Assembly (NCBI GenBank): GCA_024277275.1
Contig: JAJRVO010000311.1
Location: 1-41,414, forward strand
Length of the DNA: 41,414 nt
DNA from: Chloroflexota bacterium
Lineage (GTDB): Bacteria > Chloroflexota > Anaerolineae > 4572-78 > J111
Reading direction: 5' to 3'
Of this stretch, positions 6,135 through 31,682 are shown one piece after another (the first letter of the stretch is position 1; each line of letters begins with the position of its first letter). Below the pieces are notes generated by a model. It worked only from the letters and a program-made list of their open reading frames with translations, was not told the DNA's origin and ran no database searches. A program made the position numbers and the translations under genes.

Positions 6135-6174
6135 TATGTGTGCCTCTTTTTATTTGTGGCTTGCTATCTATAAC

Positions 6175-6273
6175 GGGTGCGTCCCAGATTCTAGGAAACT
6201 GGGATAAACCAGGGGGGATTCGGGGGGATACCCCCCGTGCCCCCCGTGCTTTCCCCAATTTTGGGACGCATCC
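6175..6273. repeat. MITE-like element, termini GGGTGCGTCCCA / TGGGACGCATCC
   Basis: Arms 6175-6186 and 6262-6273 match 11/12 as inverted repeats; G/C-run core. Confidence 0.65.
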
Positions 6274-6363
6274 ATCTGAAACAGATAGGTGATGAAGGGG
6301 CTAACCTAATTATATACGTATTTTTGACATAATGTCAAGACACAGGTGAATTACTGTGTTATT

Positions 6364-6443
6364 GGGTGTGTTTCAGTCCAGTTGTAGGGGCGTTGGGCGA
6401 ATGCCATTCGCCCCTACAAGTTCGACTCATTTGAAACACGCCC
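6364..6443. repeat. MITE-like nested element, termini GGGTGTGTTTCA / TGAAACACGCCC
   Basis: Outer arms 6364-6375 and 6432-6443 (11/12); inner perfect palindrome TTGTAGGGGCG (6382-6392) / CGCCCCTACAA (6409-6419), plus GGGCGAAT..ATTCGCCC. Confidence 0.75.
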
Positions 6444-9400
6444 TATTTATTTGGTAAAGGACGAGTAGTAGGCGGTTTATCTGTATTTAGGTCTTGCAGA
6501 TCTAGTGTAAGTCCAAATCCTGTTACAGTAACACTGGTCCTGGAGTTATTCGTCTCGTTACTTTCCACAACGTAGCCTTCAGGTACGCCAAGCCCACCCC
6601 ACGAGTCAACATAAACGCCTACATTCTGGGTGCCGCTCTGGTTGAAGAATCCAGGCCAGTTGGTATCAGGCGGCGGCGCCAGATAGGGATCGCCGCCGGC
6701 AGAAGTTAATGTGATAACTGCTCCCGGCGCTAAGGTTGCTCCCACTTGCCAGGCCAAACCGTAGCACGTATTGGCTGAACAAAGCGTGCCCCAAAGGTGT
6801 CCTGCTTCTGTGGGGAATGATGTAGGATTGATGTAAAAGTCGACCCAGAAGAAGTCAGCAGGATTAACATTAACAGTACTTCCGCCAATATTTTCAATGA
6901 CAACCTTGAATGTTACCGGTGTTGTTGGCCCTGGTGTACCGGCCCATTCTATAATCAAATCCTTGGCCCACAGGTCTGGTAGGCCGCCGCCACCACCGCC
7001 AGTGCTATTATTGAAGATAATTGGCAGGTAAATGTCGCCTGTAGTAGCTTGTATTGCCACAGTGAACACCTGCGAACTGGCAGTATTACCGGCCCGGTCA
7101 TAGGCAATCACAGTCCAGGTGTAGACGCCGGCGGTCAGATTGCTGCCGGGGGTAAACACCGACGTGGCGGTTGTAGAGATACTGGGAGTACCGCTGCTGT
7201 TGGTGATGATGATGGTGTACGTAACCGGTCCGGAGAGTGCATCGGACGAGTCATCCCAATCAAAGGCGGGGCGTTGCGTGGTAGTGATGGTTTGCCCATC
7301 TGATGGCGAGGTCAGGTTTGGCGGCGGAGCGGGCGCTACGCGGTCTAGCGTCACAGTCCAGGTATCGGTGTAGCCGCTGCTCTGTCCTAGCTGGTCTATC
7401 GCTCGTACAGTCCAGGTGTAGCGACCATCGCCATCCAGGGTATCCAGGTCCAGATTCAAAGACCTTATCCCCGTCGTGGATATTTGTGTGGTGGCCGGCC
7501 CGGTAATCATCATATTGTAGGTTAAAGGCCCTGAATATGTCACGTCGCTCCAGTCAAAGAAGACGGGATTGTTATTGGTAAATGTGCCATCGGGCGGGCT
7601 AATTAGGTACGGTTTTTCTGGTTTATCAACGGTAAGCAAGAAGGTCTCGACCGTGAATAACGAGGTGTCGCTGACCGTGATGGAAATGGTTGTTGTGCCG
7701 GTTTGGCTGGCGGTGGGGGTGATAACCAGGGTGCGATTGGCCCCTGAGCCACCCAGCCCTATGTTGGCATCGGGTACCAGGGTTTGGTTAGATGATGTCA
7801 CGGTAATGACCAGGCTGGCGGCAGGGGTTTCCGGGTCGCCGATGGTGAATGTGATGGGCGGAGTAGGAATACCAACGCCGGTAAACTGGTCGGCGATAAG
7901 GGTGATGGTTGGCGGTTCGTTGACGTCGTTGATGGCAATGGTGATGATGGCCGTGTCGGTCAGGTTGCCGGTGTCGCTCACTACAACGGTCAGGTAATAC
8001 GTCATTGTTGTTTCGTAATCTAGCTCGTTGCTGTTGTTGACGGTGATCAAGCCGTTGGTCGGGCCGATGGCAAAAGAGCCGTTGGTATTGCCGGCGGTAA
8101 TGGTATAAGTCAGGGGTCCCAGTTCCGGATCGTTGGCAATGACAAAATTGACCAGGGTTCCGTTCGGGCTGTTCTCATCTACCGAGAAAGTCTGGTCGTT
8201 GACTACCGGCGGGTCGTTGGCCGGGTCGACGGTAATTGTGACCGTGGCCGTATCGGTTAGCGTTGGCGTGCCGGTATCGCTGACAATGAAGGTAAAGGTA
8301 ACGGTACCGTTGTAGTTGTTGGGCGGGGTGTACACAAAGCCGCCGCTAAGCGGGTTGGTGATGACCACCGTGCCGGTGACGGGGTTGGTAACGATGCTGT
8401 AAGTCAATGGGGCGTTATTGTTATCGATGGCGGTGAGCGTGCCGTTAAGCGGGGTGTCTTCTGGCGTATTAAAGGTGTCGTCATTGGCAACCGGGGCAAC
8501 GTTTAGGATGGTTACGCCCGCTTGACTCGTATTGTCAAGCGTATCCGTGTCAGCCGTACTCCCGGTGATGGTTGCCGTGTTGGTGAAAATGTAACCGGCG
8601 CTTAAGCCCAGGTTAACCTGGCCGCTAACGGTGATGATACCGCCCTGACCCTGAGCCAAGTTTTGCACCTGCCAGCTAAAGGTTGTGCCGCCGGTGCGGG
8701 TAATGGCTACCCCGCTGCTGATGACGTTGAGGCCGGTGACTGTCACCGGAATCTGGTCGGTGATGATGACATTCTCGGCGGTGGAGGGGCCGTTGTTAAC
8801 AAAGGTCAGCGTGTAGGTGATGGTTCCGCCCGGATCCGCTTGGGTTGGGGCGACGGTCTTGGTTATGGTCAGGTTGGCCGGTGGCGCTGCCAGCGTGTTG
8901 AAGGAGGCGCTGGCGTTGCCGCCGCCGGAGGCCTGGGTGTAGTAGGCGGTGTTGGTGATGACCTGGCTATAAGGCGCGGTTGCAGACACAGTAGCCGGGA
9001 TGGTGAAAGTGATACTTTCTCCGGCGGTGATAGTGACTGTCTGATCCAGGTTGCCGCCGATGACATCGGCGGGTAGGGTGTCGGTGATGCGGATGTTGCT
9101 GACATCCAGCCCGGCGCTGCTGGACACTACAATGGTGTAGGTAATCGAGTCGCCTCGCAAGGCCGGGTCGTTGCTCGGTTGGACGGTCTTGGTGATGGAC
9201 AAATCGCCCGGCGACGGCGGTTGCACAGTGACGGTGGCGGTGTCGAAGCCGCTGCCGGAGCTTTGGCTGTAGTAAGCGGTGTTGGTGATGATGGCGTTAT
9301 AGGGCGCGGTGGCAATCACGGTGGCGGGAATGGTGAAGGTAACGCTTTCACCGGCGGTAATCGTCACCGTTTGGTCCAGATTAGAGCCGGTGACATAGGT

Positions 9401-12400
9401 CGGCATGGTATCAGTGATGCGAACATTGTCGATGTCCAGGCCGCTGCCGTTAGCCACCTCAATGGTGTAGGTAATTGGGTCGCCCTGAATGACCGGAGAG
9501 CTACTCACGGCAACCGTCTTGGTGATGGTCAAGCTGCCTGGTGACGGCCCCTGCACAGTGAAAGCGGCGCTGTCATTGCCGCTGCCGGAAGTCTGGCTGT
9601 AGTAAGCGGTGTTGGTGATAACGGCGTTGTAGGGCGCGGTTGCGTCCACAGTGGCCGGGATGACGAGGGTTACGCTCTCGCCGGCGGTGATGGTCACGGT
9701 TTGGTCCAGATTAGAGCCGGTGATGTAGGCGGGCAGGGTGTCGGTGATGCGGACGTTGGCGATGTCCAATGTGCCGTCGTTGGCTACCTCGATGGTGTAG
9801 GTGATTGGGTCGTTCTGCTGGGCCGGGTTGTTGGTTAGTTGCACGGTCTTGGTGATGGACAAATCGCCCGCCGATGGCGGCTGGATGGTGAAAGCGGCGC
9901 TGTCGTTGCCCCCGCCGGAGGGTTGGGTGTAGTAGGCGGTGTTGGTGATAATGGCGTTGTAGGGCGCGGTTGCAACCACGGCAGCATTGATGGTGAAGGT
10001 TATGCTCTCACCGGCGGTAATGGTCACCGTCTGGTCCAGGTTAGAGCCGGTGACATCGGCAGGCAGGGTGTCGGTGATGCGGATGTTGCTGATGTCCAAT
10101 GTGCCGCTGTTAGCCACCTCAATGGTGTAGGTGATCGGGTCGCCCTGAATGACTGGAGAGCTACTTACCGCTACCGTTTTGGTAATGGCCAAGTCGCCCG
10201 CCGATGGCGGCTGCACGGTGATGGAGGCGCTATCCTGTCCCGTGCCGAAAGCGTAGGAATAGTAAGCGGTGTTGGTGATGATGGCGTTGTGTGGCGCGGT
10301 TGCAGACACGGTAGCATTGATGGTGTAGGTTATCCGGTCGTTGGCGGTGATGGTTTCTGTCACGTTCAGGTTAGACCCGTTAATGTAGGTAGGCAAGGTG
10401 TCGGTGATGCGAACATTTGTGACGCTTATAACATCGCTATTGGCCACCACAATGGTGTAAGTGATTGGGTCGCCCTGTACCACCACGGCGCCGCTGATTT
10501 GTACCGTTTTGGTAATCAGCAGGACGCCCGACGGCGCTGGTTCTGTAACAAAGGAGGCGCCGGCCGAGCCGCTGCCGGAGGGTTGGGTATAGTAGGCGGT
10601 GTTGGTAATAGCCTGGCTATAAGGCGCGGATAGCGACACGATAGCCGGGATGGTGAAGATGATGCCCTCACCGGCGGTAATGGTTACGGTCCGGTCCAAA
10701 TCAGCGCCGATGACCTCGACCGGCAGGGTGTCTGTGATGCGGATATTGCTGACATCTAACCCGGCGTTGTTGGTGACAATGATGGTGTAGGTGATTGGAT
10801 CGCCCAGTTTAACCGGGGCGCTGCTCACGGCAACCGTTTTGGTGATGGTCAAATCGCCCGGTGACGGCGGCCATACAGTGAAGGAGTCGCTGTCGTTGCC
10901 GCCGCCGGAGGGTTGGGTGTAGTAGGCGGTGTTGGTGATAATGGCGTTGTAGGGCGCGACGGCAGACACGGCGGCATTGATGGTGAAGGTGATGCTTTCT
11001 CCGGCTGTAACCGTCACCGTCTTATCCAGGTCAGCGCCGCCGGTGACAAGACCGGGCAAGGTATCGGTGATGCGGACGTTGGCGATGTCCAGGCTGCCCT
11101 TGTTAGCCACCACAATGGTGTAGGTAATTGGGGCGCCCTGTTGGGCCGGGTCGTTAGTTAACTGCACCGTCTTGGTAATGGTCAAATCGCTTGGCGACAA
11201 CGGCGGCTGCACGGTAAAGGTATCGCTGTCTTGCCCGCCGCCGGAGGGTTGGGTGTAGTAGGCGGTGTTGGTGATGATAGCGTTGTAGGGCGCGGTTGCA
11301 GATACGGTAGCATTGATGGTGAAGGTGATGCTCTCGCCGGCGGTGATAGTTACCGTTTGGTCCAGATCATTACCGTCAATGTAGACCGGCAAGCTATCGG
11401 TGATGCGGATATTGCTGACATCCAGACCTGCGTTGTTAGCCACCACAATGGTGTAGGTAATTGAATCGCCTTGTTGGGCCGGGTTGTTGGTTAATTGCGC
11501 CGTTTTGGTGATGTCCAGCGTAGCCGCCGGCGGCCCTGTTATAGCAAAGGATTCGCTGTCAGTGCCATTGCTGGAGGTATGGGTGTAGTAGGCTGTATTT
11601 GTGATGATGGTGTTGTAGGGTACGCTATTCGATACGGTCGCATAAATGGTGAAGGTCACACTCTCACCGGCGGTGACGGTCACCGTCTGGTTTAGGGGAG
11701 AACCGTTGACGTAGGCAGGCAGGGTGTCGGTAATGTTGGTGTTGTCAGCGTCCAGCCCGCCGGTGTTAGCCACCACAATGGTGTAGGTAATCGGATCGCC
11801 CTGCACAGCCGGGTTGTTGGTAAGCTGCACCGTTTTGCTGATTGCCAATTTGGCCGGAGGAGTCAGCTCGATGGTGAAGGTGATGCTGCTTTGATTACCG
11901 CCGGATGTATGCGTGTAGTAAGCGGTATTGCTAATGGTAGTGGCATAGGGAGCATTGTTAGCCACGGTAGCCGGAATGGTAAAGGTGACGCTCTCTCCGG
12001 CGGTGACAGTCACCGTTTGATTCAAACCAGAGCCATCGACAAAGTTGGGGAGGGTGTCGGTAATGTTGACGTTGGCAGCGTCTACCAGGCCGCTGTTAGC
12101 TACCACAATGGTGTAAGTAATCGGGTCGCCCCGTTGAGCCGGATTGTTGGTTAGACCCACCGTCTTGGTAATTGACAGGCTAGGCGACGTAACAGATACC
12201 GGCGCCGTGTTGCTCACAATTGTCTGGCTCAGGTCATAGGTAGCGGTGATGGTCTGGTTGTAGTAGTCGCCTTCTGTAATTGGCGCGGTGGCCGTAAAGG
12301 AGACCAGGGTTACGCCCTGGCTTATGCTCCAGGTGCGACCCGGCACAACAACACTGGGATAGACCACGCTGTTAGGACTAAAGAATGAATGTAGCTGGTC

Positions 12401-15400
12401 GGTTAGGGTTACAGTGGCTATGCCGTTGCCGCTATTGGTCAGGGTGATGGTGTAGGTCACGGTTCCGCCCGGAACGACAAAGGCCGGTTGCACCGTTTTA
12501 CTGAGGGTGATGTTATTGGTTGAGGCGATGGTAGTGGTTAGCAAACCAAATGGCGCGGTAATAGCGTTGCCGGCCGTGACGCCAAAGGTATTGGTCAAAA
12601 TAGTTTGAGCCGCCAATGGGCTGGTGACTCGCACCGTGACCGTCACCTGCGCCCAATTGCCCACGGTTAGAGGATTGGTTAATTCCCATTGCAGGAGGTT
12701 GCCTGTTGGAGTAAAGTTGCCCGTGGCCGGAGGCACAAAGCCACTTGATTGATAAACTGCGTTGGCCGGCAGCACATCGCTGATAACCACACCCAACGCC
12801 GGTCCCAGAGAAGAGGCATTGTTGGTGATGGTCAGGGTGTAGGTCAGGTAATCGCCGGGCTGCACGGTGTCGACATTGGCGGTTTTGGTAATGCTCAACA
12901 CAGCCGGGGCGTCAACAGTAACCGTGACCGGCGCGCCCGCGGCGTCGGTAAAGGCGCTGCCGCCGGTAATGGTATAGACCTGGTTGACAATCTTTGTGCC
13001 GTGCGTTAGCGGTTTGCTGACGGTAACAACGTAGGTAAATGAGATAGTTCCGTTATTACTAAATACAACCGTGTCCGTAATCCATTTTACAACCGGGGTA
13101 GTCATAACCGGCGACGACCCAATTGCAGCGACAAAGTTGGTGTTCGCCGGTAGTTCATCGGTAATGGTGTAGCTGCCGGTTGTGTCTTGCTCGCCGGTGT
13201 TGGTGATGGTGATGGTGTAGGTGAGCAGACCGCCGGGTTGCACCGTATTGCCGGGCGTAACCGCTTTGCCAATTTCCCACCGGGGCGAACTGACAATTAC
13301 CACATCCTGCACCGTGGCCTGACTTCCGTTGCCGGCGGCGGTGATGACGGTAGTGTTAATTTGCCCGCTTGAGCCTGCCGGCGCGGTGTAGGTTACCACC
13401 ACGGTTTGGCTTTGGCCGGGGGTAAGCGCGATGGGATAGGTTAGCGGTTGGTCGTAGTTAATGGTCCAACCGCCCAGGCTGCTGGCGGCGTCGATAATGA
13501 AGGTGTCGGCCATGTCGCCATCATTGAGCAGGGTGTGCGTGATAACAACCATCTGGCCTTCTGCAATGATGGTCACGGTGTCGCTGTAGAATAAGACCCG
13601 TTGCACCGGCACGCGCTCATACGCGCCGATGTCATAGCCCAGACCAAGCGGGCGGGCGCTATTTTGGTGGTCAATGGTTAAACCGGCAATGGTTGTACCG
13701 GCGTCTCTGGCCGGGGATGTGCCGGCTATGTAGAGGTATGGCGGGTCCACAAATTGGGGATTAGGATCGCCCGCCACCCTATTTAACTCGCTGCCATTAA
13801 CCACGTCTGACGCGCCGTTGCCAAAGTGAAGGTTATAATCAAGATTGGGTTGTGTTCCTGCGGTTGACGCTTCAACCGCGCCGCCGCTGGCAGCCGTGTT
13901 AGTGGCAAAAATTGTATTTTGGATCGACACGTTGCCGTTGTCGGTGATGTAGATAGCGCCGCCATTAACGGCTTGATTGTCGACAAAGGTGTTGTTTTGC
14001 AGGGTGGCCGTGCCGGTGATGTAAAGCGCGCCGCCGTTGGCGGTGGCGGTGTTGCTGTAGAGCAGGCTGTTTTGTAGCAGCAGGTTGTTACCGGCGTTGT
14101 AGAGACCGGCCCCATTTGTAGCCGAACCGTTGTAAAGGCGACTGGCGCTGAGAGTCAGGTCTGCTCCTTCGTTGTAGATGTTGCCGCCGGCATTTGTCCC
14201 ACCGCCCTGTCCGGCATTGCCGTTGCGGATAAAGAGCCGGTCTATGGTGATTGAGCCGCCGGCTTGTACTTCCTCGGCAATAAAGATGCCCCGTCCCTGG
14301 CCTTGCGGGTCGATATAGGTGGTGTTGGTCAGGTGGTCAGGGGGGTCCAGATAATCGGGTGACTCGTAGCCGCCGCGCAGGGTAACGGGTTTGGTGATAA
14401 AGATGGTTTGGGTTAGGGGCAGGGTTTTATAAGTTGTGGTGACCGTGTCGGTGTAAGTACCCTGGGCAATTTTGATGACGTCGCCGGGAGCCGCCTGGTT
14501 AATGGCGTGTTGAATAGTGAGACAGGGTTTGCCTGATACGGTACAATTGTTATCGTCAAGGTCCGGTGACGGCGGGGCTAATTCATCTTCGCGCACTATG
14601 GAGTTTCTACCTCCAATAGCATTAACAAAGCGTGTCCCGGTGATGGTCCCAATAGCCGTAGTATTGGCAGCGGCTTTTTGGTTGCTGGTGCTGTTGGATT
14701 GCGCTATGGCAGATGTAACATCAATCAGACCACCGGCTATTTCTGGTCTAATGTCGACTCTAATCACAATGGCGCCGGTGTATTGTCCGCTTCCCTTTGG
14801 CTCCAGAGTAAGCTGGCCGGAAGCCGGGGTAATAATTTGGCCCGAAGCGTAGAACCCGGCCTTGGGGAAGATGGTGTAGGTATCTTGCACATTGCCGATG
14901 TTGGTGATGATGTGGGTATAAGTTATAGATTCGCCGGCCAGGGCTGCGCCGGTATTATCAGGTTCTATGACAAAATCAAAGTCTTCTATCACCCGGGTTT
15001 CGGCTGGGTCGCTGGCGCCGGCTGGTGCGGCTACTCCCGTATAATCAGCGCATTGCAATGTTTCATATTGGATGGCGGTTGAATCGACCAGGTTAGCGGC
15101 AGCGCCAATTGGCACCGACACCTTTACCTGTATGGTGGCCGTGTCTCCCGGCCCCAGGTCAAAGGTGGCTGTGTGCGGTTTGGTCGTTGTCTGGCTGACC
15201 ACATTGGTTGCGCCTTGAATGGATACAATCTCTGCCCAATTTTGGGAAGTGGTAGCAGTTATGACGATGGTTTCGGTAAAGCCGGTGCCAATCCCCCAAG
15301 AGGAACTCTCATTGGATAAATCGAACCAATTCTCACTGTCGTTTCTAAGAGAGAAGGTATAGGTTATGAAATCATTCGGGGCCAGGGTTGTTCCCAAGGG

Positions 15401-18400
15401 GGTGGGGCTATCGACAAAGGTCATGGCCCTTGCGCCTACGCCGTACTCGTCGCGCCCCATATCTTTAGCGCACATTTGGGGACGGGGGTCAAGGTTTCTG
15501 TCAACGGTAACGTGAGATGCTGTTGTGGGCACGGCGTCAATGGCCGGAGAGTTGTAATAAAGGTCGCCGGCGGTGTTTCTAAATTTGGGATCGGCCGGTG
15601 TTGGCGTATTGGTTGGAATAAACGTGGTACCGCTATACCCATTTAACCAGCTCAGGGTGTAATCTACGGGGATACTGGCTCCGGCTCCGTAAATACCACT
15701 GCCATCGCCGCCGGAGGTGTTAAAGGCCATAATACTGGCGCTAATAACCGCAGAAACGCCGCCGGCATAAACGCCGCCGCCTTGATCATCGGCGTGATTT
15801 TGGCGGATGGTGGCGTGGTAGTGGGCTGACTGGGTGTTACCAATTTGGTAGAGACCGCCCCCATCATCATTAGCCGAATTGTTGTAGAGGCCCAAATTGG
15901 TTGTGGTTAAAACACTGTTTAAATCGGCGTAAATGCCGCCGCCGTCTCCGCTGGCATCCGTGGCCTGATTATTGTTAAGCCGTTTTTGTCTTAAAACAAA
16001 GGTGGCATTGGTATTATAAACGCCGCCGCCGTGATTAGCCTGGTTGCTATCAATTGGCGCGCCGCCGCCAATATCAATGCTGCTGCCGCTGTCGTTATAC
16101 ATCCCACCGCCGTTTCCGCCGGCCGTGTTGTCGGAAATGCTGCCGTCGGTGATGGTTATATCGCTATTGGGGCCGTTATACAAACCACCGCCGTGGACAC
16201 TGGCTGTGTTGTTGTTGATAAGGCTGCCGGGAATGTTAACCACGCTGTTATCGTCGTTATACACCCCCCCACCGTTTCCTCCGGTGGCGTTGTTGCGAGA
16301 AATATTAACGCCGCATAACGTGGCTGTAATACCATTAGCATTATAGATGCCGCCGCCAACAGGGGCGGTGTTTTGGGAAACTTCGCCGCCACTCATGTTA
16401 AGGGTGTTATCTGTGCCAACGTAAATACCGCCGCCTACCAGGCTGGTGGCCCGGTTATTTGTAACTTCTACACCCTGGCTTTCGCCGGTGCTTAAGGTGG
16501 CAACAATGCCCAAGCCGTCTTCTAAGAAGATGCCGCCTCCCCAAACTGCCGAGTTAGAATATACTGTGGAGTTGATAAGATTTAGATTAGCCCGGCTTTT
16601 AATGCCGCCGCCGTTGCCGGCGGTGTTGCCGTTTTGAAGCAGTAGGTAGGAAAGGGTGGGCGCTTGGGCCGAGGCTTGAATGTCGACTACCGAGCCGTTG
16701 TTACCGCCGTCAATGGTTGTAGCAATATAGCGGACCGGGCCGATATCGGGTATATCCACTGTAAATGGCGCTGAGAAATCATTTAGCCAGGAGCCATCAA
16801 TGGTTACAAGTTTGTCGATGGTAATGTTCTCCTGGCAGGCGCCTACAGCCACCCTAATTGTTTGACTAAGCGTGGCTGTATTCAGAGCTGCCTGAACACT
16901 GCCAAAAATGGGGCCATCGGCCAGGTTGCCTGTTAAGGGGTCAGAGTCGCCGTCTGAGTCTGTCTGTACCAACTGAACCAGACAGGCGTCGTTTTCATCG
17001 GCGCCTATGTCCGGCGCGCCGTTTACCGGCCGAGGGTCGTTTTCAAAATCATGCGCTACGCCCAACCCGGCCTCAGCCCGATTAATAATGGGAGAGGTAG
17101 AGGACAGGTGAAAATCGCCGCCGGCAGCATCCACAAAGGATGGGTCTTCATTGAGACTGTTGGCTCCAACAGTGATCCCTGAAGCCTGGCTGCTTCCAGC
17201 GCCGGGCCAATAGTCGTTGTAATTATAGGTTCCGCCACTTCCGGCCTTACGGATAGCGCTGCCTATATCGGCTATGTTGGCATCGAAAATGTTGTTTTTA
17301 ATGGTGGGCGTTCCGCCACCGGAAATGTAAATGGCCCCACCTTGACCTGTGCTGGAGGCTGTCGCCGCATTTTGATAGAAGGTGTTGTGCAGGATTTCGG
17401 GGCTATCGCCGCCAATATATAGGCCCCCGCCCTGGTCCTGGGCCGTGTTGGTGTAAACCAGCGTGTTGTGCATAGTCAGGCTGCCGCTGCCCCCGGTGTA
17501 GTAGATACCGCCGCCCTGGTGGGCGCTGTTGTCATAGAAGGCGTTACCCCGGTCTATCGTCACGGTTCCGCCGGAGCCGTTATAAAGACCGCCGCCCTGA
17601 CCCGCAGAGGCAACAATGGCAGTGTTATTGTTAATTGTATTTTTTAGCAGCGACACTTGACCGCTATTATTATAAATCGCACCGCCATTAATCGCCTGAT
17701 TGCCGTTAATTGTATTCCCCGTGGTATTGCCGGTGGTATTTATCGCATCTTCGGTGTGAGTTCCCACGGATATTTGGCCGGTGTTGTTATAAATACCGCC
17801 GCCATTGCTGCCGGCGCTGTTATTAGAAAGGTTGATGTCTGTCATTGTGATTACGCCAGTGGCATTATAAATACCGCCGCCGTCGCTTGTGGCGGTATTG
17901 TTGGTGACGGTATTATTTGTCATTGTGACAACACCGCCGGCGTTGTAGAAGAAGCCGCCTTGATCGGCCTGGTTCTGGTCGAGTTCACTGTTGTTTTCCA
18001 GGGTCAAATTACCGCTATCGTTAAATATACCGCCGCCCCATCTGCCAACGGTGCTGCTGAATACAACGGTTGCCCCGTTAATCGTCATATCGCCGGTTGC
18101 ATTATAGATGGAGCCGCCGTCTGTAATAGCCTGGTTGTATCGAATCCAGCTATTATCCATAGTAAAGGTATTGCCGTTGTTAAAAAAGGCGCCGCCATAG
18201 GCTGCTGTATTATTGTAGTAATCAACGTGTGCTATAAGGCCCTGAGCGCCGTTGTGGTAAAATCCGCCGCCGGCATCACCGCCACCGGGACCGCCGCCCT
18301 GACCGGTGGCATCGCCGTTGGTTACAATAAATCTATGTATGTCAACAGTTATGCTACCGGTGACCAGGATAACCCGGCCCAGGGTTCTAGCGTTAAGGGT

Positions 18401-21400
18401 AGTGGCCGTTGAATCGAATTGACTCAGGGGTCCGCCGACCTGGGAACTGAAATCGCGTGTATAGCCGCCTTGCAGAGTCAGGTTGTGCGTAATGTGAACG
18501 GTTTGGCTGAGTGTCTTCGCGCCATCAAAATAAGTGTGGACGCCCCGACACTCTCCCCTCGTAACCAGAATTGTGTCGTCGGGCTGGCTATTATCAATAG
18601 CCCGTTGGATGTTGCCGTAAATGATTCCAGAACTCGTAACCTTCGCCCAGCAACTACGCCGTTCATCGGCGCCCATGTCAAAGTTCTGGTCGCCGGGGCG
18701 GTAGTCGTTTTCAAAGTCCTGGAAGGCCGGCATGGTTGGGTCGCCCTGATCAATAACGGGGGAGTTATCCGGGATGCGGAAAAAGGCATTTACCGGGTCT
18801 GCTGCCAGCCAAGGATCTCCAACAAGATTGGTGGCGTCAAACGTGACACTACCGCCAGAGTTGCTGCCGGACCCGGAGAAGTTGTTGTATGTTATGGTGT
18901 AGGGCGTGGTACTGAAAATAACATCGTCGGAATTATTGCGGAAGATATTATTTCGCACGTCAGGGTCGCCGGTTGTGGTGTGGAGGCCGCCGCCATCGCC
19001 GCCGGCAGAGTTTGAGTAGATGGTGTTGTGCCAGGCTGTCAGGCCGCCGGCGGCGTTGTAAATAGCCCCGCCGTCGCCGGTAGAAACCGAGTTATTACGG
19101 ATAATGTTGTTTTGCAACAGGGTAGCGCCGCCGGCGTGATAAACCGCGCCGCCACTGCTGGCAGCCTGGTTATTACGCACATCAACGGTATCTAGCGTGG
19201 TATTCCCTCCAGCGTTATAAATGGCTCCACCGGCGGTAGTAGCCGTATTAGTAAAAATGCCAAAGGGCAGGGTGTTGGTAAAGATATCCTCAAAAATATA
19301 GACGGTTCCGGCCTGGTTGTAGAGCGCGCCCCCGTTGGTGGCTGTGTTGCTGTAGACCTGGTTCTGGGTCATAGTCAAGACCCCGTTGCCGACAAAGAGC
19401 CCGCCGCCATTGCCTGCCTCAGACCCGCCGGCCGCGCCGGCATTGCCTCTTTGCAGGTGCAGGCCGGCAACGGTTACTTGAGCCGTATTGGTAATGTAAA
19501 TTACCCGGCCCAAGTCTAGCGCATCCAGGATGGTTGGATTAGCTATGGGGTCTGAGGTGGTAAAGTTATCTTTGGTATACCCGCCCCGGATAATCAGCGA
19601 TTTGGTTATAAAGACCGTTTGGCTGACGGTTTGCCAGTCGTCAAATGGATCAACGCCCTGACAAATACCGGCCACCCGGATTTCATCACCCGGATTACTT
19701 AGCCCAACGGCTACCTGAACTTTTCCGTAAGTGGGCGGCACGCCGTTGATTTGCACAAAACAGTCGGCTATTTCATCCACGCCGATATCAAAATCCTGGT
19801 TTGAAGGCCGTGGGTCCCCATCAATATCATCGGTGACGGGGCTGGCCGGGTCGCCTTCCTCTTCACCTCTGGAGCCGGAGTTGATTCTCAGGAAGTTGGG
19901 GTTAGCCGGATCGACAGAGATAAAGCTGGGTGTAGCCGAGATGTTTTTATCGGGCGCCGGGGGCGAAAAGCCACTTATATCAACACCGCCATTATCAACA
20001 ACATCGTTGTACTTAAACGTTGGCGCGGTTGCAATGCTGGTTATCCCATTCCCCGTATTGCTAACAATCATCGTGCTGTTGATGACTGGCAATGAAGTGC
20101 CGGCATCGTGGTAAATACCGTCGCCCTGGTTAGCATAAAAGGTGTTGTGACGCAGCGTCAGATAATCAGACTGGTTGTACAACCCGCCCCCATTACCGCC
20201 GGCAGTATTGCTAAATACAATGGAGTTGATCAGGGTCAGACCGGAGGAGCTACCGGCCACATTGTACAGGCCGCCACCATCGGCGCCGGCCGTATTGGTC
20301 AAAATAAGGCTGCTATCCAGGGATAATTGGCCGCTGCTATGGTTATAAAGACCACCGCCGCTGCCGGTAGTTGAGTTGCCGTTTATGGTCAAACTCTCGC
20401 CGTTTAGCGTGCCGGTATTATAAAGGCCGCCGCCGGTGGTGGCGGTGTTGCTGTACAGCGTGGTTTGGCTAATTACTAGTGAGCCGCCGGCATTATAAAA
20501 TCCGCCGCCCTGGTTGGCTGAGTTTTGCTCAAACCGGCTATCATTTTGAATGGTCAACGAACTACCGGCCACGTAAAGTCCGCCTCCGTTGCTGCCCGCG
20601 TTGTTTTGGCTAAAGGTAACTTGCCTGATAGCAGTTGATTGGTTGTCTACAATGTACAGGCCACCGCCGTCGCCGGTGGCTGTATTGCTGATAATGGTTG
20701 TTTGGCCGGTGTTGCCCAAATTGAGCATGTTGGGGGTTGCGGTGTCGTTAAAGTGGTAAATTCCACCCCCGTATGCCGCCTGATTGTTGGTGATAACGGC
20801 GCTGTTCAAAGTTAGGAAACTGTTGTAGTTGTAGATACCGCCGCCGGCATCGTTATTGCCTGGGCCTCCGCCCAGTCCTTGCGCATTGCCGTTGGTTAGG
20901 GTCAGGTTTAATAGGCTCACGCTTGGGTTGCCGCTAATGGTAGCGGTGATAACAAGCGTTCGGCCTTGCCCTCTGGCATCAAGTGCAGTGGGTACAACAC
21001 TTCCCGGATTGCCGATTGGGTCGTTAGAGAAACTGCTGTTATACCCCCCTTCCAGGGTTAGGGATTTACTAATAAAGACAGTCTGGCTAAGTACCTGCCC
21101 ATCGACCAGTCGGCTATGTACGCCTCTACATTCGCCGGAAATTTGCACAATATCACTGCCGGAGGCGGCGTCAATGGCTTCCTGTAAAACACCAAAGACG
21201 TTGCCCCCAAACCGGGGTACTCTACTCAGGTCAATTACTCTGGCCAGGCAGCCGGTCACTTCGTCGGCGCCTATGTCAACGCCCTGATTTGCCGGACGTA
21301 TGTCGTCTTCAATATCTGCTGTTAGAAAAGTGTTGGGTTCGGCTGCGTCAACAGAGGGCGAATCCAGAGTTAGGTGCAGGTCTCCGTTGGCTGCATCAAC

Positions 21401-24400
21401 AAATTCAGGATCGGATGAGATACTATTTGAACCGGCAGAGGGTAAGTTGTGGTTGGGAGAGGAAGCGGCGCTATTATTCCAGAAGTTGTTGTAGTCAATG
21501 GATGATGGCCCGCTGCTAAGGCGGTAGACTCCCCCCCCGGTGTTGGCCTGGTTAGCAACGACAATGGTATTAGAAAATACCAACGAGCCGCTGTTGTTAT
21601 CAAATACGCCGCCACCCAGGTTAGCCGCCTGGTTGCCATAGAGGGTGTCGTTGACCAGGTTTAGGGTTCCTCCATCTTTGTAAATTCCCCCACCGTTGCC
21701 GGTAGTGGCGCTGTTACCGTAGATAAAGTTGTTCCACAGGGTCAGGCTGCCGCTTGCGCTGTACAAGCCGCCGCCGGCGCCGGCCGTATTGCTGTTGACA
21801 CGTGTCTGAGAAATTATTGTGGTTCCGGCTACCTGATACAACCCGCCACCCTGGGCAGTGGCGCTGTTTTGCCAAACCGTGAGTTTTTGCCCGGTTAAAC
21901 TACCGCCAGCCTGGTAGATACCGCCGCCGGTGGTAGCGCCGGCGCTGTAAACCATACCGCCTGCCAGGGTTAAGTTGCCGCCCGCCTGGTAAATACCGCC
22001 GCCGGTGGTAGCGCCGGCGCTGTAAATTGTGCTGTTGGTCAGGATGGCGCTGCCGCTTTCCAGATAGATACCCCCGCCCAGAATAGAGACAGTATCGGTG
22101 ATACTGCTATTTTGAACGGTGGGACTACCGCTGTTTACATAAATACCGCCGCCTTTCCCGCTGCCGCCGGTGGTTGCGCTTTCGGCAATAGAGATGTTAT
22201 CCAGGGTTGGACTGCCGCTATCAATGTGAATACCACCACCCCATCGAATGGCTGTAGTGTTAGAAATGGTTATATTGGTTAGCGCCGGGTCGCCGCTCTG
22301 GATGGAGATAGCTCCTCCATCGGCGGCTGTGCTGTCTTTAATGATTAGATTTGCCAGAGTAGGGGCCGCGTTACTTTCTACATAAATACCCCCGCCGGCG
22401 CCGGCGGAGTTGTCAAAATCTTGAAGCGTAAAGTTTTCAATTAAGGGTTGGCTTGGAGGAGTAGCGATGATGTCCAGTCCGGGTCCAAAAAAACCGCCAG
22501 ACCTTTGAATAATGGTTGTAGCGGGATCAAACCCCTCAGGCGGCTCAAGAAAACTAACGGGCTGGAAGCCGCCACGCAAGTTTATATTTTGGTTGATAAG
22601 GAGAGTCCCTGTTAAAACATAAGTACCCTGAGATACTAAGACTGTATCGCCATCGGCGGCTTGACCCAGGGCGTAAAGGATGGTTTCGCAGGGTTGCCCC
22701 GAAACCCGACAGTTGTTTTCGGTATCACTACCGCCGTTAGAAACGTGCCGGTTTCCGCCGGTGGGGTTGGCAGTGGTTGTATCGGTGACGGTTTTGAAGA
22801 CGCCGAAACTGCCGTAATTAACGGAGGTAGCCGTCACGGTCATTATGTCCGTTAAACCGGCTGGGGCAGAACTGGTTACCACCACCTGAACAGATATTTG
22901 GGCGGATTCATTGTATCCCAACGTTACGGTAACAGGCGTTACCGCTTGTCCCCAATTTCGTGGCGAGCCAAAGGTGATGATAAAGGTGTCGGTTGCGCCG
23001 GTGTTGGTCAGGGTGTGGGTATAGGTTATTACCTGGTCGGGATCCCCAAAGCTGGTGTAATCGGGGGAAAATTCCAGGCCGGGGTTGCTTATGATGTCTA
23101 CCGTGCTGTCAACTCCCGCTGCGTTGCTGGTTGAGGTGGCGGTGATAAATGTTTGGTTGTAAATGCCGGACAGGTCGGTAATAGGAATTGAGACAACGAT
23201 GGTAAAGGCCGTGGGCACGCCCAGAGTTAAATCTAATGTCTGACTGGTTGGGGTAATTGTCCAGCCATGGCTGTTTGTGGCGTCAATAGTCACTGTGTCG
23301 GTTGAAGCGCCGGTATTGCCGATGTTGGTGATGGTGTGGGTAAATGTCACCAATGTGCCCTGAGCCGCCACGGTATCGGTGATGATATGCGGATTGTCTG
23401 GCGGCAGAATGTCGGCCAGGTCTATATCGACATAAAGCCGGCTTTCATCCGCACCGATGTCACGACGTCCCCCTGTGGGTTGGGGACGGGAGTCATTCTC
23501 AAAATCGGTGGCTAACGTGGAAGCCGAATCGGCGGTATTGATGAGTAGCGACGAGAGTTTCAGGTGGAAGTTGTTTGTGGCCGGATTGGTCAGACCGGGA
23601 TCGACCGAAATATCGGTAGTGCCGGTGATTGCATCACCACCGTAGTTACCGGACGCGTTGCCGTAGAAGTCATTATAATTTAGCGAATACCTGCCCCCGG
23701 TTGGGGCATAAAGGCCGCCGCCGGTGGTGGCGCTATTGGTGGCCACAATGGTGTTCTCCAGAGTTACCTGCCCCGTACCGTTGGCCGTGCCGGCGGTAAC
23801 GCCGCCGCCTTGACTGGCTGTATTATTATAGATGGTGTTGTGATCCAGGGTAACGTTGCCCCCGCCGGAGTTGTAAACCCCGCCGCCGAAAGAAGTAGCC
23901 GTATTATTGTAGATAACGTTGTTACGCAGTGTGGCGTTAACATTGAGACCCAGGTAAACGCCACCACCTGAGCCGGTGTACGAGCCGCCGGTGAGGTAAA
24001 GGTTCTCTATGACGGGGTTAATGGCGCTGGTTCCATTGATGTAGAGGACTCGCCCCCCACCTTGAGCATCCAGAATGGTTGGCCCATATTGAGGGTTGAC
24101 CCAATCGGTGGTCGTGTATCCACCGCGAACGGTTAAAGTTTTGCTAATGTAGACGGTTTGGCTAAACCCTCCGGTTGATTGAACCCCCTGGCAAAGACCG
24201 GCCACCTGAACCAGGTTGCCGGAGTTGGCTGCGTCAACCGCTTGCTGCACGTTGGTGTAAACCTGGCCGCCTTCAACGCGGGCATAGCAATCGCTGGCTG
24301 CTATATATTCATCTGCGCCACGGTCAATCAACTCCGACCCGCCAACGGCGGCATCAAAAGGCCGCCCGTCGCCCTCGTAGTCTGAGGTGATGGTTGTAGT

Positions 24401-25696
24401 TATTGCTCCATCGTCAATAGCGGGCGAGGCAGCGAGTAGGTGTAAATCAAAGTTGGTAGCGTCTGTAAATTTGGGATCACGATTTCGATTATTGCCAACG
24501 CCAATTGACTCGGGATTAATAGAGCCATTGATGTCATTATTGGGTGAGTTGCCAAAGAAATCGGTATAAATAAGGCTTAAGGTGGTGTTGCTGAAAATTC
24601 CGCCGTTGGCAGTGGCAGTGTTACTAATAATAAGGTTGTTAGTAATGGCTACAGTGCCACCAAAAGCAAAAATGCCGCCGCCAGAGGTAAGGCCATCATT
24701 GCCATAAATGGTGTTGTTTTCAAGATTTAAAATAGCGCTGAAAACCCCAACCCCTCCCCCAACAGAAACAGTTGCCCTATTGTTATAAATAAGGTTGTTT
24801 CTGGCTGTAACGGTACCCGCAGCAGCATCAAGACCGCCAATATTATCGGCGGTGTTACTAAAAATCTCATTTGCCTCAATCAGAGCAATGCCCGAAATAA
24901 CCCTGATTGCTCCTCCGTCGGCTGCCGCTGTATTTGAATAGATTTGATTCCCGTTCAGCACCAGCGTTGCTGCGGTAGCTATGCCGCCGCCATGGCCGGC
25001 GGCATCAGTGGTTATATTGTTGTAAATTTTGTTGTTTTCCAGAGTCAGGTTTCCTGCCTGGTTGTAAACGCCTCCACCCACCTCTTGACCGGCCAAAGTT
25101 CCCCCTTTACCACCAGTCAGATGAAAACCGTTGACTGTAGCATTGACAGCGCTAGGTACATAAATCACTCGTCCTAGCCCGCCAGCGTCGATGATAGTTG
25201 GGTTCAGTTCTGGATCAGACGTAACCCAGTTAGTGGTTGTAAACCCGCCACGCAGAGTCACCGACCCGGTCAGGTAAACATTTTGGGTTAAGATGCCCAC
25301 AGTATTTGTATCTGTATAACGACCGGCTGCGACCCGGATTTCATCACCGGAACTGGCCACATTCACAGCGTATTGTATTGTAGCGCAGGGATTGTAGCTT
25401 GCGGTACAATCATTGCCGCTGTTGTTGCCGCCTACTGAAACCGGAGCAACATAGCGAATTGGCGGTCCGGCCGCATGCATTGCCCCGGGGTGACCTAATA
25501 GCCAAAAAAACGCAACCAGCAGCATACTTGTGGCCAATAAAAAAACCGGTCCCAAACGTGATAAAGTAGATATCAACGCCCTGGGCCGGTTTTGCGAATT
25601 ACGCTCAGAGTCAACTTGATTTAAACTAGCGGTAATTTTTGTATTCACTCTTGGTGTCTTCATGAAGTTCCTCAAGTCTTTATCTCTGGATTCCAA
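6443..25696 (-). CDS. Giant secreted multidomain beta-helix / DUF11 / cadherin-Ig / CARDB-like surface protein (putative adhesin)
   Basis: Single ORF of 6,417 aa. N-terminal hydrophobic segment (RLGPVFLLATSMLLVAFFWLLG); repeated GGGIYN...LTLxNxxIYxNxA coils; D[IM]GADE-like module ends; many [LI]xITKTV...GDPITYTI[VE]VAN...ITDTLP repeats; VNEPPTITL/DENSPNGTL cadherin-like; DIYLPIIFNN; YVVESNETNNS CARDB-like. Confidence 0.92.
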   Translation of the reverse strand: MESRDKDLRNFMKTPRVNTKITASLNQVDSERNSQNRPRALISTLSRLGPVFLLATSMLLVAFFWLLGHPGAMHAAGPPIRYVAPVSVGGNNSGNDCTASYNPCATIQYAVNVASSGDEIRVAAGRYTDTNTVGILTQNVYLTGSVTLRGGFTTTNWVTSDPELNPTIIDAGGLGRVIYVPSAVNATVNGFHLTGGKGGTLAGQEVGGGVYNQAGNLTLENNKIYNNITTDAAGHGGGIATAATLVLNGNQIYSNTAAADGGAIRVISGIALIEANEIFSNTADNIGGLDAAAGTVTARNNLIYNNRATVSVGGGVGVFSAILNLENNTIYGNDGLTSGGGIFAFGGTVAITNNLIISNTATANGGIFSNTTLSLIYTDFFGNSPNNDINGSINPESIGVGNNRNRDPKFTDATNFDLHLLAASPAIDDGAITTTITSDYEGDGRPFDAAVGGSELIDRGADEYIAASDCYARVEGGQVYTNVQQAVDAANSGNLVQVAGLCQGVQSTGGFSQTVYISKTLTVRGGYTTTDWVNPQYGPTILDAQGGGRVLYINGTSAINPVIENLYLTGGSYTGSGGGVYLGLNVNATLRNNVIYNNTATSFGGGVYNSGGGNVTLDHNTIYNNTASQGGGVTAGTANGTGQVTLENTIVATNSATTGGGLYAPTGGRYSLNYNDFYGNASGNYGGDAITGTTDISVDPGLTNPATNNFHLKLSSLLINTADSASTLATDFENDSRPQPTGGRRDIGADESRLYVDIDLADILPPDNPHIITDTVAAQGTLVTFTHTITNIGNTGASTDTVTIDATNSHGWTITPTSQTLDLTLGVPTAFTIVVSIPITDLSGIYNQTFITATSTSNAAGVDSTVDIISNPGLEFSPDYTSFGDPDQVITYTHTLTNTGATDTFIITFGSPRNWGQAVTPVTVTLGYNESAQISVQVVVTSSAPAGLTDIMTVTATSVNYGSFGVFKTVTDTTTANPTGGNRHVSNGGSDTENNCRVSGQPCETILYALGQAADGDTVLVSQGTYVLTGTLLINQNINLRGGFQPVSFLEPPEGFDPATTIIQRSGGFFGPGLDIIATPPSQPLIENFTLQDFDNSAGAGGGIYVESNAAPTLANLIIKDSTAADGGAISIQSGDPALTNITISNTTAIRWGGGIHIDSGSPTLDNISIAESATTGGSGKGGGIYVNSGSPTVQNSSITDTVSILGGGIYLESGSAILTNSTIYSAGATTGGGIYQAGGNLTLAGGMVYSAGATTGGGIYQAGGSLTGQKLTVWQNSATAQGGGLYQVAGTTIISQTRVNSNTAGAGGGLYSASGSLTLWNNFIYGNSATTGNGGGIYKDGGTLNLVNDTLYGNQAANLGGGVFDNNSGSLVFSNTIVVANQANTGGGVYRLSSGPSSIDYNNFWNNSAASSPNHNLPSAGSNSISSDPEFVDAANGDLHLTLDSPSVDAAEPNTFLTADIEDDIRPANQGVDIGADEVTGCLARVIDLSRVPRFGGNVFGVLQEAIDAASGSDIVQISGECRGVHSRLVDGQVLSQTVFISKSLTLEGGYNSSFSNDPIGNPGSVVPTALDARGQGRTLVITATISGNPSVSLLNLTLTNGNAQGLGGGPGNNDAGGGIYNYNSFLTLNSAVITNNQAAYGGGIYHFNDTATPNMLNLGNTGQTTIISNTATGDGGGLYIVDNQSTAIRQVTFSQNNAGSNGGGLYVAGSSLTIQNDSRFEQNSANQGGGFYNAGGSLVISQTTLYSNTATTGGGLYNTGTLNGESLTINGNSTTGSGGGLYNHSSGQLSLDSSLILTNTAGADGGGLYNVAGSSSGLTLINSIVFSNTAGGNGGGLYNQSDYLTLRHNTFYANQGDGIYHDAGTSLPVINSTMIVSNTGNGITSIATAPTFKYNDVVDNGGVDISGFSPPAPDKNISATPSFISVDPANPNFLRINSGSRGEEEGDPASPVTDDIDGDPRPSNQDFDIGVDEIADCFVQINGVPPTYGKVQVAVGLSNPGDEIRVAGICQGVDPFDDWQTVSQTVFITKSLIIRGGYTKDNFTTSDPIANPTILDALDLGRVIYITNTAQVTVAGLHLQRGNAGAAGGSEAGNGGGLFVGNGVLTMTQNQVYSNTATNGGALYNQAGTVYIFEDIFTNTLPFGIFTNTATTAGGAIYNAGGNTTLDTVDVRNNQAASSGGAVYHAGGATLLQNNIIRNNSVSTGDGGAIYNAAGGLTAWHNTIYSNSAGGDGGGLHTTTGDPDVRNNIFRNNSDDVIFSTTPYTITYNNFSGSGSNSGGSVTFDATNLVGDPWLAADPVNAFFRIPDNSPVIDQGDPTMPAFQDFENDYRPGDQNFDMGADERRSCWAKVTSSGIIYGNIQRAIDNSQPDDTILVTRGECRGVHTYFDGAKTLSQTVHITHNLTLQGGYTRDFSSQVGGPLSQFDSTATTLNARTLGRVILVTGSITVDIHRFIVTNGDATGQGGGPGGGDAGGGFYHNGAQGLIAHVDYYNNTAAYGGAFFNNGNTFTMDNSWIRYNQAITDGGSIYNATGDMTINGATVVFSSTVGRWGGGIFNDSGNLTLENNSELDQNQADQGGFFYNAGGVVTMTNNTVTNNTATSDGGGIYNATGVITMTDINLSNNSAGSNGGGIYNNTGQISVGTHTEDAINTTGNTTGNTINGNQAINGGAIYNNSGQVSLLKNTINNNTAIVASAGQGGGLYNGSGGTVTIDRGNAFYDNSAHQGGGIYYTGGSGSLTMHNTLVYTNTAQDQGGGLYIGGDSPEILHNTFYQNAATASSTGQGGAIYISGGGTPTIKNNIFDANIADIGSAIRKAGSGGTYNYNDYWPGAGSSQASGITVGANSLNEDPSFVDAAGGDFHLSSTSPIINRAEAGLGVAHDFENDPRPVNGAPDIGADENDACLVQLVQTDSDGDSDPLTGNLADGPIFGSVQAALNTATLSQTIRVAVGACQENITIDKLVTIDGSWLNDFSAPFTVDIPDIGPVRYIATTIDGGNNGSVVDIQASAQAPTLSYLLLQNGNTAGNGGGIKSRANLNLINSTVYSNSAVWGGGIFLEDGLGIVATLSTGESQGVEVTNNRATSLVGGGIYVGTDNTLNMSGGEVSQNTAPVGGGIYNANGITATLCGVNISRNNATGGNGGGVYNDDNSVVNIPGSLINNNTASVHGGGLYNGPNSDITITDGSISDNTAGGNGGGMYNDSGSSIDIGGGAPIDSNQANHGGGVYNTNATFVLRQKRLNNNQATDASGDGGGIYADLNSVLTTTNLGLYNNSANDDGGGLYQIGNTQSAHYHATIRQNHADDQGGGVYAGGVSAVISASIMAFNTSGGDGSGIYGAGASIPVDYTLSWLNGYSGTTFIPTNTPTPADPKFRNTAGDLYYNSPAIDAVPTTASHVTVDRNLDPRPQMCAKDMGRDEYGVGARAMTFVDSPTPLGTTLAPNDFITYTFSLRNDSENWFDLSNESSSWGIGTGFTETIVITATTSQNWAEIVSIQGATNVVSQTTTKPHTATFDLGPGDTATIQVKVSVPIGAAANLVDSTAIQYETLQCADYTGVAAPAGASDPAETRVIEDFDFVIEPDNTGAALAGESITYTHIITNIGNVQDTYTIFPKAGFYASGQIITPASGQLTLEPKGSGQYTGAIVIRVDIRPEIAGGLIDVTSAIAQSNSTSNQKAAANTTAIGTITGTRFVNAIGGRNSIVREDELAPPSPDLDDNNCTVSGKPCLTIQHAINQAAPGDVIKIAQGTYTDTVTTTYKTLPLTQTIFITKPVTLRGGYESPDYLDPPDHLTNTTYIDPQGQGRGIFIAEEVQAGGSITIDRLFIRNGNAGQGGGTNAGGNIYNEGADLTLSASRLYNGSATNGAGLYNAGNNLLLQNSLLYSNTATANGGALYITGTATLQNNTFVDNQAVNGGAIYITDNGNVSIQNTIFATNTAASGGAVEASTAGTQPNLDYNLHFGNGASDVVNGSELNRVAGDPNPQFVDPPYLYIAGTSPARDAGTTIAGLTIDHQNSARPLGLGYDIGAYERVPVQRVLFYSDTVTIIAEGQMVVITHTLLNDGDMADTFIIDAASSLGGWTINYDQPLTYPIALTPGQSQTVVVTYTAPAGSSGQINTTVITAAGNGSQATVQDVVIVSSPRWEIGKAVTPGNTVQPGGLLTYTITITNTGEQDTTGSYTITDELPANTNFVAAIGSSPVMTTPVVKWITDTVVFSNNGTISFTYVVTVSKPLTHGTKIVNQVYTITGGSAFTDAAGAPVTVTVDAPAVLSITKTANVDTVQPGDYLTYTLTITNNASSLGPALGVVISDVLPANAVYQSSGFVPPATGNFTPTGNLLQWELTNPLTVGNWAQVTVTVRVTSPLAAQTILTNTFGVTAGNAITAPFGLLTTTIASTNNITLSKTVQPAFVVPGGTVTYTITLTNSGNGIATVTLTDQLHSFFSPNSVVYPSVVVPGRTWSISQGVTLVSFTATAPITEGDYYNQTITATYDLSQTIVSNTAPVSVTSPSLSITKTVGLTNNPAQRGDPITYTIVVANSGLVDAANVNITDTLPNFVDGSGLNQTVTVTAGESVTFTIPATVANNAPYATTISNTAYYTHTSGGNQSSITFTIELTPPAKLAISKTVQLTNNPAVQGDPITYTIVVANTGGLDADNTNITDTLPAYVNGSPLNQTVTVTAGESVTFTIYATVSNSVPYNTIITNTAYYTHTSSNGTDSESFAITGPPAATLDITKTAQLTNNPAQQGDSITYTIVVANNAGLDVSNIRITDSLPVYIDGNDLDQTVTITAGESITFTINATVSATAPYNAIITNTAYYTQPSGGGQDSDTFTVQPPLSPSDLTITKTVQLTNDPAQQGAPITYTIVVANKGSLDIANVRITDTLPGLVTGGADLDKTVTVTAGESITFTINAAVSAVAPYNAIITNTAYYTQPSGGGNDSDSFTVWPPSPGDLTITKTVAVSSAPVKLGDPITYTIIVTNNAGLDVSNIRITDTLPVEVIGADLDRTVTITAGEGIIFTIPAIVSLSAPYSQAITNTAYYTQPSGSGSAGASFVTEPAPSGVLLITKTVQISGAVVVQGDPITYTIVVANSDVISVTNVRITDTLPTYINGSNLNVTETITANDRITYTINATVSATAPHNAIITNTAYYSYAFGTGQDSASITVQPPSAGDLAITKTVAVSSSPVIQGDPITYTIEVANSGTLDISNIRITDTLPADVTGSNLDQTVTITAGESITFTINAAVVATAPYNAIITNTAYYTQPSGGGNDSAAFTIQPPSAGDLSITKTVQLTNNPAQQNDPITYTIEVANDGTLDIANVRITDTLPAYITGSNLDQTVTITAGESVTLVIPATVDATAPYNAVITNTAYYSQTSGSGNDSAAFTVQGPSPGSLTITKTVAVSSSPVIQGDPITYTIEVANGSGLDIDNVRITDTMPTYVTGSNLDQTVTITAGESVTFTIPATVIATAPYNAIITNTAYYSQSSGSGFDTATVTVQPPSPGDLSITKTVQPSNDPALRGDSITYTIVVSSSAGLDVSNIRITDTLPADVIGGNLDQTVTITAGESITFTIPATVSATAPYSQVITNTAYYTQASGGGNASASFNTLAAPPANLTITKTVAPTQADPGGTITYTLTFVNNGPSTAENVIITDQIPVTVTGLNVISSGVAITRTGGTTFSWQVQNLAQGQGGIITVSGQVNLGLSAGYIFTNTATITGSTADTDTLDNTSQAGVTILNVAPVANDDTFNTPEDTPLNGTLTAIDNNNAPLTYSIVTNPVTGTVVITNPLSGGFVYTPPNNYNGTVTFTFIVSDTGTPTLTDTATVTITVDPANDPPVVNDQTFSVDENSPNGTLVNFVIANDPELGPLTYTITAGNTNGSFAIGPTNGLITVNNSNELDYETTMTYYLTVVVSDTGNLTDTAIITIAINDVNEPPTITLIADQFTGVGIPTPPITFTIGDPETPAASLVITVTSSNQTLVPDANIGLGGSGANRTLVITPTASQTGTTTISITVSDTSLFTVETFLLTVDKPEKPYLISPPDGTFTNNNPVFFDWSDVTYSGPLTYNMMITGPATTQISTTGIRSLNLDLDTLDGDGRYTWTVRAIDQLGQSSGYTDTWTVTLDRVAPAPPPNLTSPSDGQTITTTQRPAFDWDDSSDALSGPVTYTIIITNSSGTPSISTTATSVFTPGSNLTAGVYTWTVIAYDRAGNTASSQVFTVAIQATTGDIYLPIIFNNSTGGGGGGLPDLWAKDLIIEWAGTPGPTTPVTFKVVIENIGGSTVNVNPADFFWVDFYINPTSFPTEAGHLWGTLCSANTCYGLAWQVGATLAPGAVITLTSAGGDPYLAPPPDTNWPGFFNQSGTQNVGVYVDSWGGLGVPEGYVVESNETNNSRTSVTVTGFGLTLDLQDLNTDKPPTTRPLPNK
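8850..12190 (-). repeat. Tandem 330-bp (110-aa) DUF11-type array, 10 units, inside the giant CDS
   Basis: agta[ag]gc[gt]gt (Y-T-A-Y-Y coding) landmark at 8941, 9271, 9601, 9931, 10261, 10591, 10921, 11257, 11587, 11917: 330 bp each, with one 336-bp step. Confidence 0.9.
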
Positions 25697-27754: not shown

Positions 27755-27762
27755 CCAAAATC

Positions 27763-31656: not shown

Positions 31657-31682
31657 TTTTTCGATTTATCCCTCGCGTAGTT

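Follow-up and report, generated by a model that had tools for sequence, protein, structure and literature searches.

The closest described systems to the locus analysed here are the csc clusters of lactobacilli, enterococci and listeriae, which encode WxL proteins, a DUF916 protein and the small LPxTG protein CscD (PMC1534035), and fibrillar adhesins with stalks of DUF11 domains. The DUF11 domain has been crystallised and renamed CLIPPER, its Lys, Asp and Asn residues forming an intramolecular isopeptide bond that is also predicted in DUF7507 (PMC12617251). For the filamentous, gliding Chloroflexota, no answer to how very large anchorless proteins are retained at the surface is described in the literature searched.

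The window, that is the whole stretch of 41,414 nucleotides analysed, is contig C106 of an 833-contig, 6.06-Mb Chloroflexota genome (a MAG, 90% complete, contamination 4.79%). A preliminary description had reported an uninterrupted 19.25-kb ORF on its minus strand, and the frame from 25696 to 6443 was indeed open over 6,417 codons. GC content was 0.51 and 0.50 at first and second codon positions and 0.62 at the third, the pattern of a coding frame. The first start codon is TTG, and we infer that the ATG at residue 12 (25663) is the likelier start. The features of this giant ORF are as follows, beta-helix modules 2 to 8 each having been placed by profile matches and a choice-of-anchor-Q motif.

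6443 to 25696, minus strand: whole giant ORF, 6,417 aa, zero internal stops
25475 to 25663, minus strand: predicted N-terminal signal sequence, Sec-type, h-region at aa 45-63 by hydropathy
24302 to 25474, minus strand: beta-helix module 1, with its choice-of-anchor-Q end at aa 456
23432 to 24301, minus strand: beta-helix module 2
22742 to 23431, minus strand: Ig-like spacer domains, from a weak Ig_VWA7 match and sequence
21257 to 22741, minus strand: beta-helix module 3
19769 to 21256, minus strand: beta-helix module 4
18659 to 19768, minus strand: beta-helix module 5
16991 to 18658, minus strand: beta-helix module 6
15437 to 16990, minus strand: beta-helix module 7
14576 to 15436, minus strand: second Ig-like spacer domains, from sequence
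13613 to 14575, minus strand: beta-helix module 8
8504 to 13279, minus strand: 14 tandem DUF11/DUF7507-type (CLIPPER) domains, from profiles and the isopeptide triad
7619 to 8503, minus strand: Big_9 and cadherin-like domains, from the Pfam scan
7052 to 7618, minus strand: Ig-like domains (Big_13), from the Pfam scan
6446 to 7051, minus strand: FWVDFY-type CARDB domain preceded by an IYLPIIF linker, together the C-terminal end shared by exoproteins of this class
6446 to 6475, minus strand: Pro/Arg C-terminal tail PPTTRPLPNK, a degenerate variant of the [LI]PxRP tail

Each beta-helix module closes with a choice-of-anchor-Q motif (aa 456, 746, 1474, 1970, 2340, 2896, 3412 and 4022), with Ig-like spacers interspersed, and Pfam matches to Big_9, Cadherin, Cadherin_4/5 and Big_13 were obtained. 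The modular surface protein proposed beforehand, with about eight beta-helix modules, about 14 DUF11-like domains and cadherin/Ig-like domains, is supported by this anatomy, in which eight end motifs were counted and exactly 14 DUF11-type modules occupy aa 4140-5731. Signal cleavage is probable near the junction AMHA/AGP, judged by eye. The segment at aa 45-63 is the only strong hydrophobic one in the protein. Neither an LPXTG motif nor a C-terminal hydrophobic or membrane segment was found in the 6,417 residues by hydropathy and sequence, as had been claimed, and the giant protein does not carry the cell-surface sorting signal of its own that is expected of a fibrillar adhesin.

The Pfam scan placed DUF11 (PF01345, 5.8e-101) on 14 stretches of the giant and DUF7507 (PF24346, 4.9e-63) on 11, and the isopeptide-forming pilin model of NCBIfam also matched (1.4e-40); a sequence search of the DUF11 region against the PDB gave no matches. 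Alignment of the DUF11-type modules revealed that the first-strand Lys and the Asp of [IVL][TS]D are kept throughout (14/14 each), and the late-strand Asn in all but module 3, where Ala takes its place (13/14). Retention of this triad, read together with the published DUF11 structure, would be expected to give a covalently locked, stiff stalk, and the DUF11 region of the giant is probably such a rod, a result that favours the long stalk proposed earlier.

It is highly improbable that the giant ORF is an assembly artefact, mis-joined or repeat-altered in a fragmented MAG. Such an origin is suggested by the coincidence of contig and window ends, by a 330-bp tandem array inside the ORF and by the contig number and listed contamination of the genome, but there are no exact repeats >60 bases in the ORF, its repeat units reach at most 82% identity and its GC is even. 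The shortness of the exact repeats and the divergence of the units make repeat-driven misassembly unlikely. Furthermore, a relative encodes a 6,021-aa ORF (L146, contig C78 of genome G007; L057) with the same C-terminal domain and other modules, and the C-terminus of the giant and its partner described below both match independent genomes. The 6,021-aa ORF contains no choice-of-anchor-Q motifs and has no partner gene after it.

By sequence the C-terminal domain of the giant scores 20.4 bits against CARDB (PF07705), below the Pfam cut-off of 22.7, but relatives exceed this cut-off (38.4 bits for L037 and 33.3 for L018). An AF2 model of the domain (pLDDT 80) has its closest PDB counterpart in 3idu (E 3e-4, TMt 0.70, Foldseek), the CARDB of PF1109 from Pyrococcus furiosus. 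The predicted structure thus has the CARDB fold, in keeping with the CARDB-like end noted earlier, and the domain is read as a Chloroflexota-type CARDB. Relatives of the C-terminal 202 aa were present in 19/41 genomes, own genome counted, and in 35 of 301 Chloroflexota genomes drawn from across the phylum. The full 28-row alignment (A1) proved too diverse for scanning an 84,980-species collection, and a 7-row subset, whose pattern FWVDFY[ID] passes over divergent members, found 37 loci there; all but three of these loci are labelled Chloroflexota, and two of the three belong to one MAG labelled Gracilibacteria. The FWVDFY-type CARDB is C-terminal in 90 of the 93 distinct ORFs that carry it, and a tail motif [LI]PxR is found in 27/70 CARDB-ORF tails (shuffles mean 2.1, maximum 8), with examples of the [LI]PxR(P) type including LPPRPAP, LPPRWDP, IPTRPLPSSE, LPDRE and LPAR.

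Downstream of the giant ORF lies the smaller gene for which an LPETG motif and a membrane tail had been described.

4878 to 6134, minus strand: partner gene, from sequence, profiles and predicted structure
6003 to 6014, minus strand: partner aa 41-44, head motif PPPR of the mature protein
4980 to 4994, minus strand: partner aa 381-385, sortase-type motif LPETG

The partner opens with a signal peptide and a Pro-Arg head; a Gly/Asp linker leads to a CnaB-like (CarboxypepD_reg) domain and a second beta domain, after which a Pro-rich linker precedes LPETG, a TM and a basic tail. AlphaFold predicts a C-terminal helix at aa 389-416, the hydropathy of which is below the strict threshold of 1.8. Motif, helix and basic end agree with the earlier description, and all features of an LPXTG sortase substrate (signal peptide, LPXTG, C-terminal helix, basic tail) are present; sortase matches above the PF04203 cut-off occur at eight places in the same genome. 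In the model the beta region has a pLDDT mostly >90 and is closest to the sortase pilins SpaD, EbpB and BcpA by Foldseek, with low overall TM-scores of about 0.2, and the single CnaB domain 8bdw gave a TMt of 0.73.

A small partner family accompanies CARDB-ended exoproteins across Chloroflexota. A partner-family gene is found on the same strand and <=400 bp downstream of 62/90 C-terminal-CARDB ORFs, a count that is partly circular because the family query set was drawn from genes downstream of such ORFs; the opposite strand (0/90) and the upstream side (0/22) had none. Two results are free of this circularity. Of 52 signal-peptide genes downstream, 49 belong to the same homology component. A query with just the LPETG gene, made when the pairing was not yet known, retrieved CARDB-tailed ORFs directly upstream in about ten loci. 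In a later sample, outside the motif definition, 14 of 21 new tails were accompanied by a signal-peptide gene bearing the head motif; of 22 such genes, 17 matched the partner family. The suggestion of a wall-anchored partner, and the co-occurrence of neighbours by which it was to be checked, are both supported by this gene order. No fusion of exoprotein and partner genes was seen, the CARDB end being terminal in those 90 of 93 ORFs. The remaining 28/90 CARDB-tailed ORFs, including the 6,021-aa giant of the relative, have no partner-family neighbour. Clear LPARP/IPxR tails with no adjoining partner-family gene were observed at L187 and L189-L193 in related genomes.

Members of the partner family are 150-500 aa long and have a signal peptide followed almost directly by a Pro-Arg motif (LPPR, PSPRP, PPPRP or DPRP), replaced by a PTPT head in one lineage, then a disordered linker, to which the longer members add a CnaB-like domain (CarboxypepD_reg/SdrD_B). 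The head motif was present in 40/52 partners versus 1/42 other predicted secreted proteins, the latter taken from 20-kb stretches of four relatives. Tails and heads appear to resemble each other more in cognate pairs, with a mean score of 21.4 for real versus 19.3 for swapped pairs (p=0.001, 5,000 permutations), a match that is only suggestive because the permutation ignores relatedness; in the PTPT-head lineage the tails tend to PTPT too (L014, L016-L019). Recruitment of the partner by the tail alone was considered and is unsupported, the tail motif being no commoner with a partner gene (23/62) than without (11/28).

A C-terminal TM above the strict threshold is predicted in 25/48 partners and is preceded in 22 of these by an LPxT[G/A]-like motif; the window LPETG protein and L019 fall slightly below the threshold with the motif present. 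About 20/48, mostly of a class of ~170 aa, have neither a C-terminal TM nor a visible anchor, and on account of this class the function shared by the whole family may be something other than anchoring. The L052 partner ends in a stretch that is LysM-like by eye and received no score from Pfam. At L064:2711-3901 (plus strand) the partner has cohesin and dockerin domains, which beside a CARDB exoprotein suggests cellulosome-like docking. On contig C148 of the same genome as the giant, a partner (L051:876-2030, minus strand) has ~160 extra N-terminal residues before its membrane segment, after which follow an APSPRPPL motif, a Gly linker, a CnaB-like domain and LPDAG. There (L051:141-875, minus strand), at L058:4009-4737 and at L060, a third gene directly follows the CARDB exoprotein and LPDAG/LPDSG partner. 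Its product is lipoprotein-like and matches the Hedgehog amino-terminal signalling domain PF01085 (6.9e-28 and 2.6e-25). Bacterial Hh/DD-peptidase relatives are known (PMC6027127), and a Hedgehog-type domain in a surface-display cassette looks to be unreported.

The gap between giant and partner genes (6135-6442) is 308 bp long and contains one promoter-like site.

6309 to 6338, minus strand: sigma-70-like promoter TTGACA-18-TATAAT, 12/12 match, reading into the partner (shuffle mean 1.6 sites, any score)

The partner gene may hence have its own promoter, and the two genes need not be co-transcribed. Two long inverted repeats are also found in the gap, one of which, TTGTAGGGGCG...CGCCCCTACAA, lies directly after the stop codon of the giant; it was considered as a dispersed repeat and rejected, as its core is found once in the genome. 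Next upstream of the giant, a gene at 25982-26413 (minus strand) encodes a secreted C-terminal domain and a Flp/Fap-like pilin match (1e-6, slightly below cut-off). Long tandem arrays with units of 7 and 9 bases are located amid ordinary housekeeping genes at 31682-31996, 29396-29578, 29595-29656, 27671-27755 and 35622-35689, with units in the window including TGGTAAA x45, AGTTGGGTG x20 and CTGACTA x12. An Rfam search of the window gave no matches.

Taken together, these data are best read as a two-gene surface-display cassette in which an envelope-attached CnaB-like partner holds the C-terminus of the exoprotein, a reading to which we assign a probability of about 0.6. The giant would leave the cell by the Sec route. 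The beta-helix modules at its N-terminus would form the outward part, for which the module type suggests binding, and an adhesive function may go with it. The 14 isopeptide-locked DUF11 domains would act as a stiff stalk keeping these modules off the cell, and the CARDB-like domain with its short Pro/Arg tail as a docking end. The partner would be exported separately, fixed to the wall at LPETG by sortase, and would grip the docking end by way of its CnaB-like part, its Pro-Arg head or both.

This cassette reading is supported by the strict bias of strand and side (62/90 versus 0/90 and 0/22), by the single homology component that unites 49/52 downstream genes, by the head motif (40/52 versus 1/42), the tail motif (27/70 versus 2.1 in shuffles) and the cognate match (p=0.001, uncorrected for relatedness), and by the eight sortase places, the pilin-like partner model, the match of the CARDB model to 3idu and the LPxT plus TM or other C-terminal modules of partners. 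Against it are the 28/90 CARDB-tailed ORFs that have no partner neighbour, the approximately 20/48 partners that have no C-terminal TM, a tail motif no commoner with a partner and degenerate in the window, and the possible promoter of the partner gene. The anchorless partners, which keep both head motif and gene order, and the presence of a like motif on exoprotein and partner alike would also fit a partner that is an accessory in secretion, folding or processing (e.g. a surface chaperone or shared-peptidase substrate), the Pro-Arg motifs being read by a common third component. We regard this as unlikely, since about half of the partners have an LPxT-like motif plus TM and others are LysM-like or carry cohesin/dockerin, all attachment modules.

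More improbable is a giant that holds itself, for example by its CARDB domain or PxR tail on a wall or S-layer polymer, beside an LPETG gene for an independent surface protein. The 28 partnerless ORFs and the consensus promoter of the partner would be in keeping with such an arrangement, as would the carbohydrate-binding folds among CARDB structures and Foldseek neighbours, but strict strand, side and distance over several Chloroflexota lineages would not be expected of an unrelated gene. An extension of the cassette reading that we put forward tentatively is that matched tail-head Pro-Arg motifs and CARDB/CnaB-like coupling constitute a dedicated Chloroflexota two-protein system, not known from elsewhere, which loads any exoprotein on interchangeable anchors (LPxT plus TM, LysM-like, cohesin/dockerin). 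Exoprotein and partner might even be joined enzymatically, by ligation at the [LI]PxR tail. Should the pair act in the way proposed, the FWVDFY-CARDB end, PxR tail and downstream PxR-headed partner would provide a phylum-wide predictor of surface display, and possibly a two-part display tool.

With the csc clusters (PMC1534035) the pair shares a large anchorless protein with a conserved C-terminal domain and an adjoining small LPxTG protein proposed as its holder, a position occupied here by the gene at 4878-6134 and its relatives. It differs in having a CARDB-like end instead of WxL, a CnaB-like partner of variable anchor and a distinct phylum; the Pfam scan detected no C-terminal WxL domain in the giant, and DUF916 was absent from the Pfam matches of the giant and scanned neighbours. 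The cassette thus looks like an analogue of csc/WxL clusters, not a member, and appears unreported, no description of a two-gene Chloroflexota display cassette having been found in the literature searched, which was covered in part. The partner shares beta domains (Foldseek), LPETG and a membrane tail with the basal and shaft pilins of sortase pili (EbpB, SpaD, BcpA), but overall similarity is low and the exoprotein has no LPXTG, which makes the usual pilus polymerisation impossible. Its C-terminal domain shares fold and family with CARDB proteins (PF07705; 3idu, PF1109) but belongs to an FWVDFY-type subgroup with long inserts and a Pro-Arg tail, and in the giant it scores below the Pfam cut-off. 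Like the fibrillar adhesins with DUF11/CLIPPER stalks (PMC12617251), the giant is a long protein with predicted Sec export, binding-type modules at one end and, in mid to late position, tandem DUF11/DUF7507 domains with the Lys-Asp-Asn triad; unlike them, it lacks a sorting signal, contains eight beta-helix modules and ends in a CARDB domain. Judged by its sequence, it is a large new example of a fibrillar surface protein with a CLIPPER stalk.
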